DNA of 64,000 nt from Bacteroidota bacterium. GTDB lineage: Bacteria > Bacteroidota > Bacteroidia > J057 > JAJTIE01. The stretch covers positions 1 to 64,000 of the forward strand of contig JAJTIE010000025.1 of the NCBI GenBank assembly GCA_021300195.1, given 5' to 3'. The position numbers and the translations under genes were made by a program. The notes beneath the pieces are model-generated. The model searched no databases. It worked only from the letters and a program-made list of their open reading frames with translations, and was not told the origin of the DNA. The stretch's first letter is position 1, and each line of letters starts with the position of its first letter. Shown here piece after piece: positions 27,324 to 36,900 of the stretch.

Positions 27324-27398
27324 GGGAATTTAGCTCAGCTGGTTCAGAGCATCTGCCTTACAAGCAGAGGGTCGGGGGTTCGAATCCCTCAATTCCCA
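27324..27398 (+). tRNA. tRNA-Val with anticodon UAC
   Basis: A cloverleaf can be drawn fully. The acceptor arm pairs GGGAATT with AATTCCC. The D stem is GCTC/GAGC. The anticodon stem is TCTGC/GCAGA around the loop CTTACAA, with TAC at positions 34-36. The T arm is GGGGG TTCGAAT CCCTC-like with the conserved TTCGAAT. The discriminator is A; the CCA end is not encoded. It stands alone, with its own promoter and terminator. Confidence 0.96.
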
Positions 27399-27447: not shown

Positions 27448-27649
27448 AAAACCTTGGAAGGAAGGCATACAGCGGTGCGTTTCGTCTCCCGCATTTTTTC
27501 GAAGCAGATCAACCTTTCTGCCAGGCAGGGGCGGCACAGCCGGCCCTACGGCAGGATAGGAAATAGCAAACGTAAGAGGCACGCGGCAGCAGAGGCCGCC
27601 GGGTTGTGAACCGGATTTGGGATAAATGCAGAAGCGGGAAGACGAGAAC

Positions 27650-28064
27650 AAACAGACAGGCCTGTAAGCCGGATTCTGTACTGCCACTGCTGGCAGCAGC
27701 TGCCATTTATCTGGGCCGCTACTCACGCATCGGCTCTATCGACCTACCCCCCGGCATGACTGGGCGGGCCACCCTAGCCGGTATACATGGTCTTTCAGCA
27801 CCTGGGGTTTACCGCGATGCCGGTTGCCCGGCAAAGCCGTGGGCTCTTACCCCACGCTTTCACCCTTACCGGCAGCACAACCCGTGAGGGCTGTGCTACG
27901 TAGGCGGTATGCTTTCTGTGGCACTTTCCGTAGAGGGGTGGTGGCGAGCATGCCCGCTCCCTGTCCCCTCCCCTACCCGTTAGGTAGCAGGCTGCCCTAT
28001 GCTGTCCGGACTTTCCTCCCCTGCCTCGGTGTGGACAGAAGCGGCAGCTCGGCCTGTCTGTGTC
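27650..28064 (-). ncRNA. rnpB: RNase P RNA (class A), catalytic subunit of tRNA 5' processing
   Basis: Read on the minus strand, the conserved blocks are present in order. Near the 5' end is GAGGAAAGTCCGGAC (about 28020-28005). The central AGGGTGAAAGCGTGGGG and TAAGAGCCCAC lie near 27870-27840, and the 3' end holds AATCCGGCTTACAGGCC. The terminal P1 helix closes by pairing ACAGACAGGCC (28061-28051) with GGCCTGTCTGT (27662-27652), which fixes both ends to within a few bases. The length is about 415 nt. Ends are estimated from P1. The gene is unrelated in orientation to the tRNA next to it. Confidence 0.94.
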
Positions 28065-31537: not shown

Positions 31538-32179
31538 TTAGCGGTTATTCCAGAAGGTGAGGCCCACGCCCATCCACAGCCGTAGTAGCGGGGCGCCCGT
31601 GCGGCTGGCGGTGGCCGTAGGGCGGTAGCGGTCGGTGCCCAGTAGGGCATAGTCTGCCCCCAGGCCCAGTAGCCAGCTGTTGTGTTTACTCATGGGCAGG
31701 CGGTACCAGGCACTCAGGCTGGCAGCCAGCTGCAGCCCGGGCTGCTCCAGGGTAGCCTGCTCGGGCTGATTGGCAACCAAATAAGCGGCTTTTTCATCGC
31801 CGCCGCCCAGCAGCTCCAGGCGGGGGCCTGCCAGCAGGTATGCCTCGCGGGGGCGATGGTAGTTTTTGCGCCGCAGCTTGAACAAGGCAGCCAGGTGCCC
31901 CCCGGCCCGGTTAGTGGTGATGCCCTGGCCGGGGGCCAAGGTGTGGTGCTGACTGAGATAAGAGGGGCCTGCCTCCAGCTGGTAGCCGTAGGGCTTGCCG
32001 CAGATGAAGTGGGTGTAGAAAATGGTAGCCCGAGCCAGGGTGCCAATGCCATCCGCAGACTCCAGGGCGGAAAGCGTGGGCCCTGCCTGGATGCCCGCCC
32101 CTAGCTCGGCAAGGTGATACTGGGCCTGTAGGGGCACGGAAAAGGCTAGCAGCAGCGACAACCCGATAAAACGTAGCAT
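31538..32179 (-). CDS. Predicted outer-membrane beta-barrel protein, 213 aa
   Basis: A signal peptide (MLRFIGLSLLLAFSVPLQA) is followed by Gln-Tyr. The mature part alternates hydrophobic and polar residues with Gly-rich turns: ELGAGIQAGPTLSAL, GYQLEAGPSYLS, AGGHLAALFKL, AYLLAGPRLELLGGG, LQLAASLSAWYRL, WLLGLGADYALLG. It ends with LLRLWMGVGLTFWNNR, an aromatic-rich last strand typical of Bacteroidota small barrels. About eight strands can be drawn. Function unknown. The gene lies 31 bases downstream of a strong terminator, which is itself preceded by a consensus promoter (32304-32334). Expression therefore probably depends on readthrough of that leader. Confidence 0.75.
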   Translation of the reverse strand: MLRFIGLSLLLAFSVPLQAQYHLAELGAGIQAGPTLSALESADGIGTLARATIFYTHFICGKPYGYQLEAGPSYLSQHHTLAPGQGITTNRAGGHLAALFKLRRKNYHRPREAYLLAGPRLELLGGGDEKAAYLVANQPEQATLEQPGLQLAASLSAWYRLPMSKHNSWLLGLGADYALLGTDRYRPTATASRTGAPLLRLWMGVGLTFWNNR

Positions 32180-32209
32180 GGCTACAAAGAAGAATCAAAT
32201 AACCGGCAA

Positions 32210-32300
32210 TAAAAAACCCCAAGTGACTCGGCACTTTGGGGTTCAACAATAAACTAACTAAACTAACTACTATGATAACCTACACTGCTGCAAGCTACTA
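32210..32300 (-). ncRNA. Candidate short leader RNA or small RNA ending in an intrinsic terminator
   Basis: A consensus promoter should start a transcript near 32300. It meets a strong terminator at 32242-32211 after about 60 bases, giving an RNA of about 90 nt. The 5' part holds a repetitive TAGTTAGTT-TAGTTAGTT stretch (about 32268-32250). No ATG-initiated reading frame is present. The beta-barrel gene starts 31 bases beyond the terminator. It could be an attenuator leader for that gene or a free small RNA. Alternatively the hairpin merely ends the receptor transcript from 32474. No named RNA family was recognised. Confidence 0.5.
32211..32242 (-). terminator. Intrinsic terminator between a promoter and the beta-barrel gene
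   Basis: On the minus strand, ACCCCAAAGTG pairs with CAC-TTGGGGT (one bulged A) around CCGAGT and is followed by a run of T, then ATT. It is a strong rho-independent form, located downstream of the promoter at 32304-32334 and 31 bases before the ATG at 32179. Confidence 0.88.
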
Positions 32301-32303
32301 GTA

Positions 32304-32334
32304 CAAAGATACACGACGAGTTTGAGACTTGCAA
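32304..32334 (-). promoter_or_regulatory. Consensus promoter of the leader RNA
   Basis: On the minus strand, TTG (32334-32332), 20 bases, then TATCTTTG (32311-32304) match the consensus exactly. Predicted +1 is near 32300. Confidence 0.82.
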
Positions 32335-32473: not shown

Positions 32474-35400
32474 CTATTTATCACTGCCAAACTGTAGATT
32501 AAGATCCAGGATCCACTGCACATAGTACAGGCTGCCGATGAGGGGCGCGCTGATTACCTCGATGTGGCGGTTGTTCAGGATGTTGGTTCCCCCCAGCTTG
32601 ATGGTGGAGTACCACTCGGGCAGGCTATAGCTTACCTGTAGGTCTACGGTCTGATAGGCAGGCACAACGCCCCGGCCAATGGCAGCCTGATAGTAAAAGG
32701 CATCTACCCAATGCCAGATGGCGTTGAAGCCCCAGCGATCTCGAATCTTGCGACCGGAGAGGCCGATGTTGGCCCGATAACGGGATGAGTTGAAACCGTT
32801 GCTGAAGTTCTGGTTTATATACGCCTCGTCCTCCCCTTTCAGGTCATTGTGCGTCAGGTTAGCATCCAGGGTCAGCTGCCGGTTCAGGCGGTAGCCCGCC
32901 GCCAGGGTGTAGCCCCATACCGGAATGCTCCGGGTATTGTTGTAAGCAATGCGGTACACCTCAAAGTTTCGATTTTCTATATCGTCGATTGTCAGGGTCT
33001 CATTGGGGGTATCCAGGTCGGAGAGGGTGGCCGTAAGGAAGGTGGCATTGGCAATCAGGCGTCGATATTCGCTGTAGTAGCCCACTACATCCACGCTCAG
33101 GCGGTCGTTCAGTTGGTTTCGGTAGCCCAGCTCATAGTTGATTACCTGTTCGGGCTTCAGCACCTGTATGTCTATGCGCTGTAGCAGCTGGGCGGCCTGT
33201 TCGGGCGTTTGGCCCTGCTGGCGGGCTGCCAGGTAGCTCTGGTAGGAGGATTGGGAAAAATTATTTCCCGTCTCCAAGTTCAGCCTATCCAGGGTGGCTT
33301 TTATAGCACCCACATCGATTGCCCTACCCAGATCCAGAAAAGAAAACTGGTCTTGCAGGCTAGACTGGCGGAAGCCAGTCTGCCAGGTAGCGCGTACAAT
33401 GTGGTTTTTTCGTTCGCCCAGTGCGTAGAGGGCGGCGAGGCGCGGCGAGAGTTGGCTCTGGAAGTATTTGTGCCCGTCGAAGCGGAGCGAACCTAGCAGC
33501 CGCAGCCGCTCGTTCAGCAGCCAGCGCGAGGCCTGCACATAGGTTCCGTACTCGTAGGTGGTGAGCGATACGCCATTGGTGTCGGCAAAGATGGTCCCCC
33601 CGCTATTGGGGGTATACAGCCGGTAGTTTCCACCCACTATCAGCTCCACATATTCCTTCAGCTGCTCAAAGTTGTACTGGGCCTCGGCATGGTAAAAACG
33701 AGATCGGTCGAAATACTTTGCGCCGGTGTTCAGGTTACCGTCTATGCGCTGGCGCTTGGCCTGCTGCAGCAGCCCCTGGTACTCAGCACTGCCGGGCTCC
33801 ACGCGGGCCTGCCCGCCGCTGTAGAGGGCACTAAGCACCGCAGCCTGCTGCTGGGCAGCGGTGGTGCCCAGTGTGGGCTGCAGCTGGCTGAAAAGAATCT
33901 GCTGCAGCACCGGCTGCAGCGCCCGGTTGTCTCCGTCGGCAAAGGCGCGTGCAGCCGCGTCATTACCCGGTGCCAAGGTAGGCTGGCCAGTGGCCTGCAG
34001 GGCGCCGTTCAGAAACTGATCGCCCGTATAGGCCAGCAGGTACTGGGCAAACCAGTTTTCGTTCGCCTTACGATTGCCCTCGATAAATACAGCAGCCAAT
34101 TCAGAGTTATAGCTATTGGCAGAGTACTGGCCACTGGTATAGGTGCGCACAAAGAAGTTTCGCCCCCTCAGCTCCAGCTTGGCCTGGTAGGTGGCAAAGT
34201 CCTGTAGGTTGAAACGACTGGTAGCCTGATAGATGGCTGTGCCCAGGGCATACCTGCCGAATGCAATCAGCTCCAGCTTGTCGGTGGGTCGAAAGTGTAC
34301 ACTGGCATCCGTCCGGACATTACGCATATTGTAGTCCAGCAGATCGGGTTCGGCATAGCCGGTGCGAGCCAACAGCAGAGACTGGGTGAGCGGAGCCACC
34401 TGGGCACCCGGCAGCAGGAAAGGAGTGGACGACCGGCTGGGAGTGAAAACATTATTCACCACTTCTCCGTAGCGGTTTGCGCCATCATATCCGGGATTTC
34501 CGGGCCCGGGGATGTTGTTCCCTACCCCTTCATACACCTGCACGTCCCGCCGGCTATTTGCCTCCCAGTCATAGGCCGAAAGGATGCTGCTGTTTACCTT
34601 GAACGCCCATCGGTTGCTGAAGCGATGGGCATAGCGTACGCCCACATCATACATCGGAGACGGGTAGTGATCTATGTTGTCTGCATGGGTTACCCCCGCC
34701 TTGGCGGATACGGAGAGGCCGGGAAAGTCGAACGGACTCTTGGTATATACCTGAAACATCCCATTGAAGGCATTGGGTCCATAAAGGGCCGAAGCCGGAC
34801 CCGTGGTAATCTCCGCACTGGCCACGTCCAGGTCGTTCACCCCATTTAGCATACCCACTACGATATTCAGGCCAGGTGCTGTTACATCCACCCCGTCTAC
34901 CCAGTACAAAAAGCGGGCGTTGCTGGTAGAGTTGAAGCCCCGGGCATTCATTACCTGAAACCCGATGCTGCTGCTCACCACCTCCACCCCGGGTGTGCTG
35001 TAGGGCATGCTGTACAGGTTCAGGTTGGGCGACTGGCGTATGTCCATCGCGTTGATCTTGTACACCGACACCACACTGTTCATGGTTTTTTCCTCCAGGC
35101 GCGCGGCCGATACCACCACCTCATCGGTCATAAACACCTGGGGGGCCAGGGCCGCTTTCAGCTCGCTAGCACCGGGATACACTGCCTGCTCTAGCCGCAG
35201 GTAGCCCACATATTCTATCTGTATGGTGGCAGAATCGCCAGTTGCAAACCGGAGTGTAAACCTGCCGTCGGCATCCGTCAGGGTTCCTACCATCAGGCCT
35301 TTCACCTGCACGGGGGCGCTTATCAGGGGCTCGCCGGTCTCTCGGTCGTGCACCGTGCCCGAAATCTCGTAGCTATGGTCTGCAGCCGCCACCACCTCAT

Positions 35401-35515
35401 AGGTAGTGCTTTCGCTACGCTGCAGGCGCTTGCGGTCTTCGCGCTGGGCTTTTAGCAACGAAAAGGGTGCCAAACAAAGAAGCGCGAGTGCAAGGCAGAA
35501 TAGAGATTTATACAT
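32474..35515 (-). CDS. TonB-dependent outer-membrane receptor, 1013 aa
   Basis: Imports an unknown ligand across the outer membrane using TonB energy. A signal peptide (MYKSLFCLALALLCLAPFSLLKA) precedes Gln. Next is a carboxypeptidase-regulatory-like domain near residues 48-120 (SGTVHDRETGEPLISAPVQV). The plug follows (VSVYKINAMDIRQSPNLN, MNARGFNSTSNARFLYWVDG, EITTGPASALYGPNAFNGMF). The rest is barrel, ending LNLQFGSDK. No SusD-like gene is adjacent, so glycan uptake is not specifically suggested. It is the last gene after an ECF sigma and an anti-sigma-like protein but has no N-terminal FecA-type signalling domain. Its own promoter lies at 35544-35573. Confidence 0.92.
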   Translation of the reverse strand: MYKSLFCLALALLCLAPFSLLKAQREDRKRLQRSESTTYEVVAAADHSYEISGTVHDRETGEPLISAPVQVKGLMVGTLTDADGRFTLRFATGDSATIQIEYVGYLRLEQAVYPGASELKAALAPQVFMTDEVVVSAARLEEKTMNSVVSVYKINAMDIRQSPNLNLYSMPYSTPGVEVVSSSIGFQVMNARGFNSTSNARFLYWVDGVDVTAPGLNIVVGMLNGVNDLDVASAEITTGPASALYGPNAFNGMFQVYTKSPFDFPGLSVSAKAGVTHADNIDHYPSPMYDVGVRYAHRFSNRWAFKVNSSILSAYDWEANSRRDVQVYEGVGNNIPGPGNPGYDGANRYGEVVNNVFTPSRSSTPFLLPGAQVAPLTQSLLLARTGYAEPDLLDYNMRNVRTDASVHFRPTDKLELIAFGRYALGTAIYQATSRFNLQDFATYQAKLELRGRNFFVRTYTSGQYSANSYNSELAAVFIEGNRKANENWFAQYLLAYTGDQFLNGALQATGQPTLAPGNDAAARAFADGDNRALQPVLQQILFSQLQPTLGTTAAQQQAAVLSALYSGGQARVEPGSAEYQGLLQQAKRQRIDGNLNTGAKYFDRSRFYHAEAQYNFEQLKEYVELIVGGNYRLYTPNSGGTIFADTNGVSLTTYEYGTYVQASRWLLNERLRLLGSLRFDGHKYFQSQLSPRLAALYALGERKNHIVRATWQTGFRQSSLQDQFSFLDLGRAIDVGAIKATLDRLNLETGNNFSQSSYQSYLAARQQGQTPEQAAQLLQRIDIQVLKPEQVINYELGYRNQLNDRLSVDVVGYYSEYRRLIANATFLTATLSDLDTPNETLTIDDIENRNFEVYRIAYNNTRSIPVWGYTLAAGYRLNRQLTLDANLTHNDLKGEDEAYINQNFSNGFNSSRYRANIGLSGRKIRDRWGFNAIWHWVDAFYYQAAIGRGVVPAYQTVDLQVSYSLPEWYSTIKLGGTNILNNRHIEVISAPLIGSLYYVQWILDLNLQFGSDK

Positions 35516-35597: not shown

Positions 35598-36302
35598 CTA
35601 ATACAGCTTCTGCACAAGGGTCCAGTCCATAGCCAGGGGTCGGGCCTGGGCTGCTGGCACAGGCGGCGGCGCCGAGGCGGCGGCATTGGTTGCTGGCTTG
35701 GCCTTTTCACTCAGCTGGATTCCTTCCTTCCAGCCAGCCACCTGTTCGCGAATCATCGGCTCCGTATCCTGCGTGGGGGGAAGCGGCGCAGGGACATCGG
35801 CAGCCCTACCCAGAGCAGCCGTAGCGGGGGCCTCGGGGGGCAGGGGGGCCGGCTGCCTGGGTTCAGCCAGGGGCGCAGGGGCGGGTGCCTGGGCAAGGGT
35901 AGACCCCCGCTCTATGGCCGGCTGCCTGTCCGCATCGCTGTTCCGGTTGATCAGCCAGAAACCTGCCCCCACGGCAATTAGCAGTACCAGTGTAGCAGTT
36001 GCCAGGGTTAGCATGTTGTTGAACCGGTGGTACCGGGGCGGGCTGGGCACACGGCGCTGCTGTAGCCTGCCCAGTGCTGCCCGTACGGCAGCACCCGGCT
36101 CTGGGGGTGGGGCTACCCGCAGCGGGGGCGCAGCCAGGGCGTGCAGGGCTTGGCTATAGGCTGCATACTCGGCCTCGTCGGCCACAAACTGCAGGGCCAG
36201 GCTCCGCTCATCGGCCGAAAGCAAGGCCCAGGGCGTATGCTGTGCGAGCTGCAAAAACTGCTCGTAAGGGTCGGTGGATGGTTTGGGGGTGGATGGTTCC
36301 AT
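35598..36302 (-). CDS. Putative transmembrane anti-sigma factor, 234 aa
   Basis: A cytoplasmic N-terminal part of about 105 residues (MEPSTPKPSTDPYEQFLQLA and FVADEAEYAAYSQALHALAA) is followed by one membrane helix (MLTLATATLVLLIAVGAGFW). Then comes a periplasmic tail rich in Pro and Ala that ends ARPLAMDWTLVQKLY. This one-helix layout, and its start 28 bases after an ECF sigma gene, make it the likely inhibitor of that sigma factor. It lacks a recognisable FecR domain or the HxxxCxxC zinc motif, so it is not a standard class. The open frame extends to 36362 inside the sigma gene, but the ATG at 36302 is the sensible start. RseP (21.5 kb) could process it; that is inference. Confidence 0.72.
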   Translation of the reverse strand: MEPSTPKPSTDPYEQFLQLAQHTPWALLSADERSLALQFVADEAEYAAYSQALHALAAPPLRVAPPPEPGAAVRAALGRLQQRRVPSPPRYHRFNNMLTLATATLVLLIAVGAGFWLINRNSDADRQPAIERGSTLAQAPAPAPLAEPRQPAPLPPEAPATAALGRAADVPAPLPPTQDTEPMIREQVAGWKEGIQLSEKAKPATNAAASAPPPVPAAQARPLAMDWTLVQKLY

Positions 36303-36330
36303 TTTGGCTTGATTCGTTTCGCACACCAGC

Positions 36331-36900
36331 TTACAGCCGGCTCTGCACAGGGCCCAGCACATGGGCCAGCTTCTTCAGGGTATAGTGTAGTCGGCTTTTG
36401 ATGGTGCCCTCGGGCACACCCATAATCTGGCCGATCTCTTTCAGCTCCAGTTCTTGCTCAAAGCGCAGGGCTATCAGCTGCTGCAGATCTGGCTTCAGCG
36501 CCCGGATAGCGCGCTGCAGCACGTCCTGATACACCTGGCTGTCTATTCGGCCTCCGGCCTCGGCAGCCGTGTGGGGGGCGTGGCCGTTCTTTGCTACCTC
36601 TAGCGCCTTTCGGGCATTTCCCTGCTTTCGGTAGTGGTTTTTGCACAGGTTGTAGGCAATGGTGTATATCCAGGTGGTGAAGGCATAGCGGGCATCGTAG
36701 CGGGGCAGGTTCTCCACTACGCGCACAAAGCAGTCCTGCACCTTGTCTTGGGCCAGGGCTTCGTCCTGATACAGCATGCGATAGAAGTAGCGGTATAGCC
36801 GGGGGCTGTATCGGGCATACAGCTGGTCAAAGGCCCGGCTATTCCCCGCCAATACCTGCTGTACCAGCTGGGCATCCGGGGTGGCATCCTCCTGGCTCAT
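36331..36900 (-). CDS. ECF-type RNA polymerase sigma factor, 189 aa
   Basis: Directs RNA polymerase to a dedicated regulon. Region 2 is visible from AFDQLYARYSPRLYRYFYRM to YAFTTWIYTIAYNLCKNHYR (DNA-melting and -10 recognition). Region 4 runs from LQRAIRALKPDLQQLIALRF through the helix-turn-helix LKEIGQIMGVPEGTIKSRLH. Length is normal. Its ATG overlaps the stop of the upstream secreted-protein gene (36897-36900), and the anti-sigma-like gene follows. The natural hypothesis is that these genes and the TonB-dependent receptor form one signalling unit. Confidence 0.93.
   Translation of the reverse strand: MSQEDATPDAQLVQQVLAGNSRAFDQLYARYSPRLYRYFYRMLYQDEALAQDKVQDCFVRVVENLPRYDARYAFTTWIYTIAYNLCKNHYRKQGNARKALEVAKNGHAPHTAAEAGGRIDSQVYQDVLQRAIRALKPDLQQLIALRFEQELELKEIGQIMGVPEGTIKSRLHYTLKKLAHVLGPVQSRL

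Follow-up and report, generated by a model that had tools for sequence, protein, structure and literature searches.

The locus and its features

The window, by which we mean the whole 64,000-nucleotide stretch of DNA analysed here, comes from a Bacteroidota genome (G000) and carries on its minus strand a series of genes and a short intergenic element, which are listed in Table 1 together with an RNase P RNA and a tRNA gene found elsewhere in the window. At another locus of the window genome (L076, 1278-2152), two overlapping frames were seen, suggesting a frameshifted gene or an assembly error.

Table 1. Coordinates of the features in the window
Feature	Position	Strand	Basis
tRNA gene	27324-27398	plus	
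RNase P class A RNA	27649-28060	minus	
Downstream gene, 213 aa, called beta-barrel by the first-pass annotation	31538-32179	minus	no Pfam match
Intrinsic terminator, 11-pair stem with one bulge, loop CCGAGT, T6 tail	32211-32243	minus	sequence and folding
Predicted sRNA, ~88-92 nt	32211-32299	minus	promoter/terminator spacing and match of model R1 (32300-32211)
Invariant 35-base core with five UAGU units	32240-32274	minus	100% identity in G000, G001 and G003
5' hairpin, 10 pairs and 4-base loop, sequence not conserved	32275-32298	minus	folding, present in 3/3 copies
sRNA promoter: TTG (32334-32332), 20-base spacer, -7 box (32311-32304)	32304-32334	minus	read from sequence
TonB-dependent receptor gene, upstream, stop codon 140 bases before the promoter	32474-35515	minus	Plug, CarbopepD_reg_2
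Anti-sigma-like protein	35598-36362	minus	40% identical to G001 counterpart
ECF sigma factor	36331-36900	minus	56% identical to G001 counterpart

Read along the minus strand from 32334 to 32211, the element runs from TTG through 20 bases, the TATCTTTG box, 5 bases and a 24-base hairpin into the core CATAGTAGTTAGTTTAGTTAGTTTATTGTTGAACC and then the terminator, whose letters are AACCCCAAAGTG-CCGAGT-CACTTGGGGTT followed by T6 and whose 3' end lies 31 bases before the ATG at 32179; in the window copy, the last core bases form part of the terminator stem. The first-pass annotation of this DNA had placed a promoter at 32334-32304, a terminator at 32242-32211 and the same 31-base distance to the ATG, and all three were borne out, the promoter as TTG-N20-TATCTTTG of the Bacteroidota type and the terminator with an extent of 32243-32211, the earlier coordinates being right within 1-2 bases. 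The doubled TAGTTAGTT stretch that it had pointed out in the leader is present as TAGTTAGTTTAGTTAGTTTA, with no ATG there. What it had not described is that this repetitive part is an invariant core found also in two other genera, nor had it described the 5' hairpin in front of this core.

TAnnTTTG is the -7 box type of the Bacteroidota and is recognised by the primary sigma factor of the phylum, and the TATCTTTG box of the element fits this type. A scan for E. coli-type promoters gave no match at the site, because Bacteroidota promoters differ. The pattern TTGC-N18-20-TAnnTTTG occurs at 3 sites in the 64 kb, against 0.34 expected in shuffles, and one of the other two sites lies 15 bases upstream of the tRNA gene at 27324 (TTGC-N18-TATATTTG), which gives the promoter consensus internal support from the same genome. 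Placed by the -7 box, the RNA is predicted to start at ~32299-32298, and its predicted end is the T run. Folding of the window RNA is stronger than that of shuffled sequences (z -2.8 to -3.7), and in the predicted fold the core, which reads CATAG...GAACC and is made of UAGUU repeats, stays mostly unpaired between the 5' hairpin and the terminator hairpin. A coding role for the core was considered and rejected: it contains one open frame, without an ATG and broken off in relatives.

Conservation of the element and its neighbourhood

We searched the whole genomes of 100 relatives with 211 bases around the site, which yielded two strong matches, one in G001 (same family, other genus; 42 identical bases, per-genome E-value of 4e-15) and one in G003 (other family, same order; 35 identical bases, per-genome E-value of 2e-11). 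The invariant block common to the three genomes comprises 35 bases (32274-32240 in the window), is 100% identical and spans 3 genera in 2 families; the conservation in relatives on which the first-pass annotation had made its proposal depend is therefore present, in both G001 and G003. The window genome holds a single copy. A pattern search (up to 3 mismatches in 28) found no copy beyond those in G001 and G003 among 295 genomes of the class, and none in the other members of the 22-genome order (3/22 carriers). A scan of an 84,980-species collection recovered the same two genomes and otherwise chance matches only, and the viral contigs scanned gave coding-like chance matches only. The exact core is known from three genomes only, all of them draft and apparently metagenome-derived. 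Outside this trio, matches of model R1 at 25-31 bits fell mostly either in coding sequence or at the 3' ends of genes, where a UAGUU stretch comes ahead of a terminator, and they were not counted as members.

The promoter elements and their spacing match in all three copies (TTG-N20-GAACTTTG in G001 and TTTG-N21-TATTTTTG in G003), with diverged flanking sequences. The 5' hairpin is found at the same place in each copy, in unrelated sequences, and dinucleotide shuffles of the 5' segments fold less well than the segments themselves (combined p of 7e-4 for the three copies). The terminator stems share only AACC/GGTT, yet 11 positions pair.

On synteny, the G001 copy is an ortholog of the window copy at the same locus, because the sigma factor, anti-sigma-like and lipoprotein genes are shared with G000, the divergent lipoprotein being 59% identical between the two loci. 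The sRNA of G001 is located directly 3' of the sigma/anti-sigma pair and is followed by a convergent carboxylase gene; in the window, the TonB-dependent receptor gene sits between the anti-sigma gene and the sRNA. The G003 copy is flanked by two opposite-strand genes. The upstream one is divergent and matches an outer-membrane barrel below threshold; the downstream one is convergent and encodes a SIS-domain protein. The 213-aa downstream gene of the window has no counterpart 3' of the sRNA in G001 or G003.

Identity of the element and candidate modes of action

The element has its own promoter and its own intrinsic terminator, its sequence is conserved independently of its neighbours (the downstream side differs), and there is no neighbour on which a cis element could act across the three genomes. 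By these marks, which are those of an sRNA gene, it is very probably one. It would be a stand-alone, single-copy, minus-strand gene of ~90 nt, transcribed from a housekeeping-type promoter and ended by a terminator of its own, and its predicted RNA would comprise a 5' hairpin, a mostly unpaired UAGUU-repeat core and a terminator hairpin.

The best explanation overall, to which we assign a probability of roughly 0.6, is that this stand-alone sRNA gene acts in trans through its core, most likely by pairing near mRNA starts. The core would then anneal to one mRNA or a few, close to the start codon, and block translation. Base pairing with mRNAs as the mode of action, considered by itself, is proposed by analogy and could equally well be right or wrong: the Bacteroides sRNAs FopS, GibS and BatR pair around the start codons of mRNAs (PMC11697453, PMC10861873). 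At its 5' end the core reads CAUAGUAGUUAGUUUA, a sequence complementary to a start context. The generalised complement of this sequence, TAAA-CTAA-TACTATG, has 18 matches outside sRNAs in genomes of the class, and 11 of these mark real ORF starts, compared with 8% of all ATGs at the same loci; the core complement is thus a genuine start-codon context in the class, which makes pairing at starts plausible. In the start regions of ~340 genes of G000 (drawn from ~464 kb) and of 203 genes of G003 (259 kb), complementarity to the core did not exceed that to shuffled versions of it, and no near-perfect start-codon target of the core was found in the carriers. The perfect or near-perfect complements that did turn up were rejected: those of G000 and G001 lie inside genes or off real starts, and one in G003 lies in frame within a gene. 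The sRNA may have a few targets with short pairing.

The chief rival to mRNA pairing is protein binding by the repeated UAGU units. The core would in this case be a multivalent site that recruits an RNA-binding protein, of the RRM type or another, and the sRNA would serve as a decoy or a protein-dependent scaffold. Five UAGU units are packed into 24 bases of the window core, BTnc049-like sRNAs (see below) keep 3-4 such units with shifted spacing, and the 35 invariant bases exceed the needs of most pairing seeds and fit a protein-binding site equally. One RRM_1 protein is encoded in each of G000 and G001, and the lack of pairing enrichment at starts also speaks for this reading. Bacteroides RbpB binds many sRNAs in their single-stranded parts (PMC11697453), and its reported motif is GUAGGAUA, as cited in PMC12119571. 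However, G003 carries the sRNA and its near-complete genome yielded no RRM protein, so that RbpB-type binding cannot explain everything, and three other genomes (G004, G006 and G008) have RRM proteins without the exact core. The G003 result weakens an RRM protein as obligate partner, and we regard protein binding in place of mRNA pairing as unlikely.

Readings as part of a neighbouring transcript

Instead of a stand-alone gene, the element could act in cis on the downstream gene (ATG at 32179), as its transcription attenuator or leader. The layout would suit this reading, with a promoter, a short leader and a terminator that stops 31 bases short of the ATG, as would the fact that no strong promoter is seen between the terminator and the ATG. 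In both relatives the gene 3' of the terminator is convergent (the carboxylase gene in G001, the SIS-domain protein gene in G003), so that an attenuator has nothing to control in 2 of the 3 genomes. Nor is an alternative anti-terminator apparent, and no Rfam leader or riboswitch matches at threshold, RNase P and tRNA being the only RNAs of the window to reach gathering scores; the earlier remark that no known riboswitch or leader family was recognisable holds at these thresholds. We consider an attenuator very improbable. Of the two layouts named by the first-pass annotation, the small RNA gene of ~90 nt stands, with conservation in three genera, its parts kept and its neighbours changed, and the attenuator falls with the opposite-facing downstream gene in both relatives. 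A promoter plus terminator before a gene would in this way be resolvable as an sRNA gene through the orientation of neighbours in relatives.

Just as improbable is that the element is only the 3' end of the receptor transcript from 32474, that is, its terminator, possibly giving a 3' UTR-derived RNA. This outcome had been raised against the earlier proposal, and we checked it. No other clear terminator lies between 32474 and 32340, a co-directional gene also ends ~130 bases upstream in G001, and relatives of the 3' UTR type may exist (L101, on contig C57 of G001). Against this, G003 has no co-directional upstream gene on its contig, with no co-directional gene on either side of the sRNA, the promoter is present in all three copies, and a bare terminator has no need of an invariant 35-base core.

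Chance identity, cross-assembly contamination or a mobile element bearing the core, to which the draft, apparently metagenome-derived state of the three genomes and the patchy presence in the order (3/22) might point, is scarcely credible, as flanks and terminator stems differ in all three and thus argue against shared contamination, synteny backs descent in G000 and G001, and the per-genome E-values given above speak against chance.

Comparison with known sRNAs

Most knowledge of Bacteroidota sRNAs stems from Bacteroides thetaiotaomicron. The base-pairing Bacteroides sRNAs FopS (RF04319) and GibS (RF04182) are short and intergenic like the window sRNA, and BatR and MasB (BTnc201), also of Bacteroides, are intergenic sRNAs with a terminator, again like the window sRNA, BatR being likened by description. 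BatR and MasB act on mRNA 5' regions (PMC10861873, PMC10994844). The only Rfam match of MasB was sub-threshold, to G001 (E-value of 1.4). Comparison gives good support to the view that the element would be a new sRNA gene of a known general type.

FopS has the same promoter type as the window sRNA, and its R1' seed contains UCAUAGUA-UUAG-UUUA, a near-match to the core 5' end; both complement start-codon contexts. It starts at the seed without a 5' hairpin, whereas the window RNA has the hairpin first and then the UAGUUAG array, and it is present in 12-15 copies per genome, in contrast to the single copy in G000. Its local similarity to the window core is weak (77/2000 shuffles), and the FopS Rfam model gave no match to the window element even at E-values up to 10. 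In G003, the exact FopS seed CATAGTATTAGATTTA occurs at L113, around position 1021 (G003:C92:37521), where the opposite strand reads as an apparent gene start (ATGAAAAACC), which suggests a common start context mirrored in this seed.

A second sRNA-like element was seen in G001 (L101, G001:C57:29836-29750, minus strand). It consists of TCATAGTAGTTAGATTTAGGTTAGTGTGAA and a terminator, lies 3' of an RND-pump gene without a clear promoter, and resembles the window core (0/2000 shuffles) and also the FopS seed. Several Bacteroidia intrinsic terminators (L137, L144, L149, L153, L160 and L162) have a UAGUUUAGUUAG-like stretch before them, some directly after a stop codon; these stretches were found with a terminator-containing model, and their occurrence is not a measure of enrichment.

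No Rfam family matches the window element at the gathering threshold. The nearest is BTnc049 (RF04179), whose gathering score is 81.9, with 18.2 bits for the window and 25.2 bits for G001. In its Bacteroidaceae copies, a TAnnTTTG promoter is followed by ~30 nt that contain a 5' hairpin, by a core rich in UAGUU that opens with AUAG and by a terminator, in likeness to the window sRNA. The alignment of their core with the window core has a score of 97; shuffles average 61 (sd 8.7), and 1/2000 of them reach it. The two differ in their surroundings, with no gene neighbours in common seen. A sequence-only model of BTnc049-like sRNAs, built without the trio, gave E-values of 0.05-0.08 for G001, was insignificant for G003 and had no listed window match. 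Model R2 was rejected as proof of BTnc049 homology: AT-rich control DNA reaches 6-10 bits, so that only G001 (12.1 bits) stands out. These comparisons suggest common descent of the window sRNA and BTnc049, which is plausible at about even odds.

We then ran the BTnc049 model against the 295 genomes and obtained sub-threshold candidates in families f58 (L198 and L209) and f18 (L205), each with a promoter-like box, a 5' hairpin, a UAGUU core and a terminator. A ten-sequence model extended this to further f18 species (E-values of 2e-9 to 7e-5), of which the three loci read have every part of this layout, and the 5' hairpin signal over the ten sequences has a p of 1e-8. Genus g28 of f18 (L205, L224, L225 and L226) has a clear, apparently undescribed sRNA in several species, composed of a TATMTTTG promoter, an ACAGT/ACTGT 5' hairpin, the core TTTAGTTAAGTTTAGTTAGGTTAGGTTAG and a terminator, and adjoining a LuxR-type response regulator in both loci read (L205 and L224). 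The f58 candidates L198 and L209 represent two genera and have the core ATAGTATAGTTAGTTTTAGTTAAGG; the L198 copy has a FecR-type anti-sigma gene on one side and an ArsR-type regulator on the other.

To our knowledge, the Bacteroidota are a phylum without Hfq, and they make little use of Shine-Dalgarno sequences. We tentatively propose, while holding it doubtful, that BTnc049, the sRNAs of f58 and f18 and the window RNA all belong to one ancient Bacteroidia family whose defining parts are a 5' hairpin and a UAGUU array, the latter acting as a conserved hub, for example as a protein decoy or a general anti-start-codon element. A core unchanged across families outside the Bacteroides group, together with the layout recurring elsewhere, would give a first sRNA to trace class-wide. 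The literature searched assigns no function to BTnc049, and the window sRNA would offer a lead on it.
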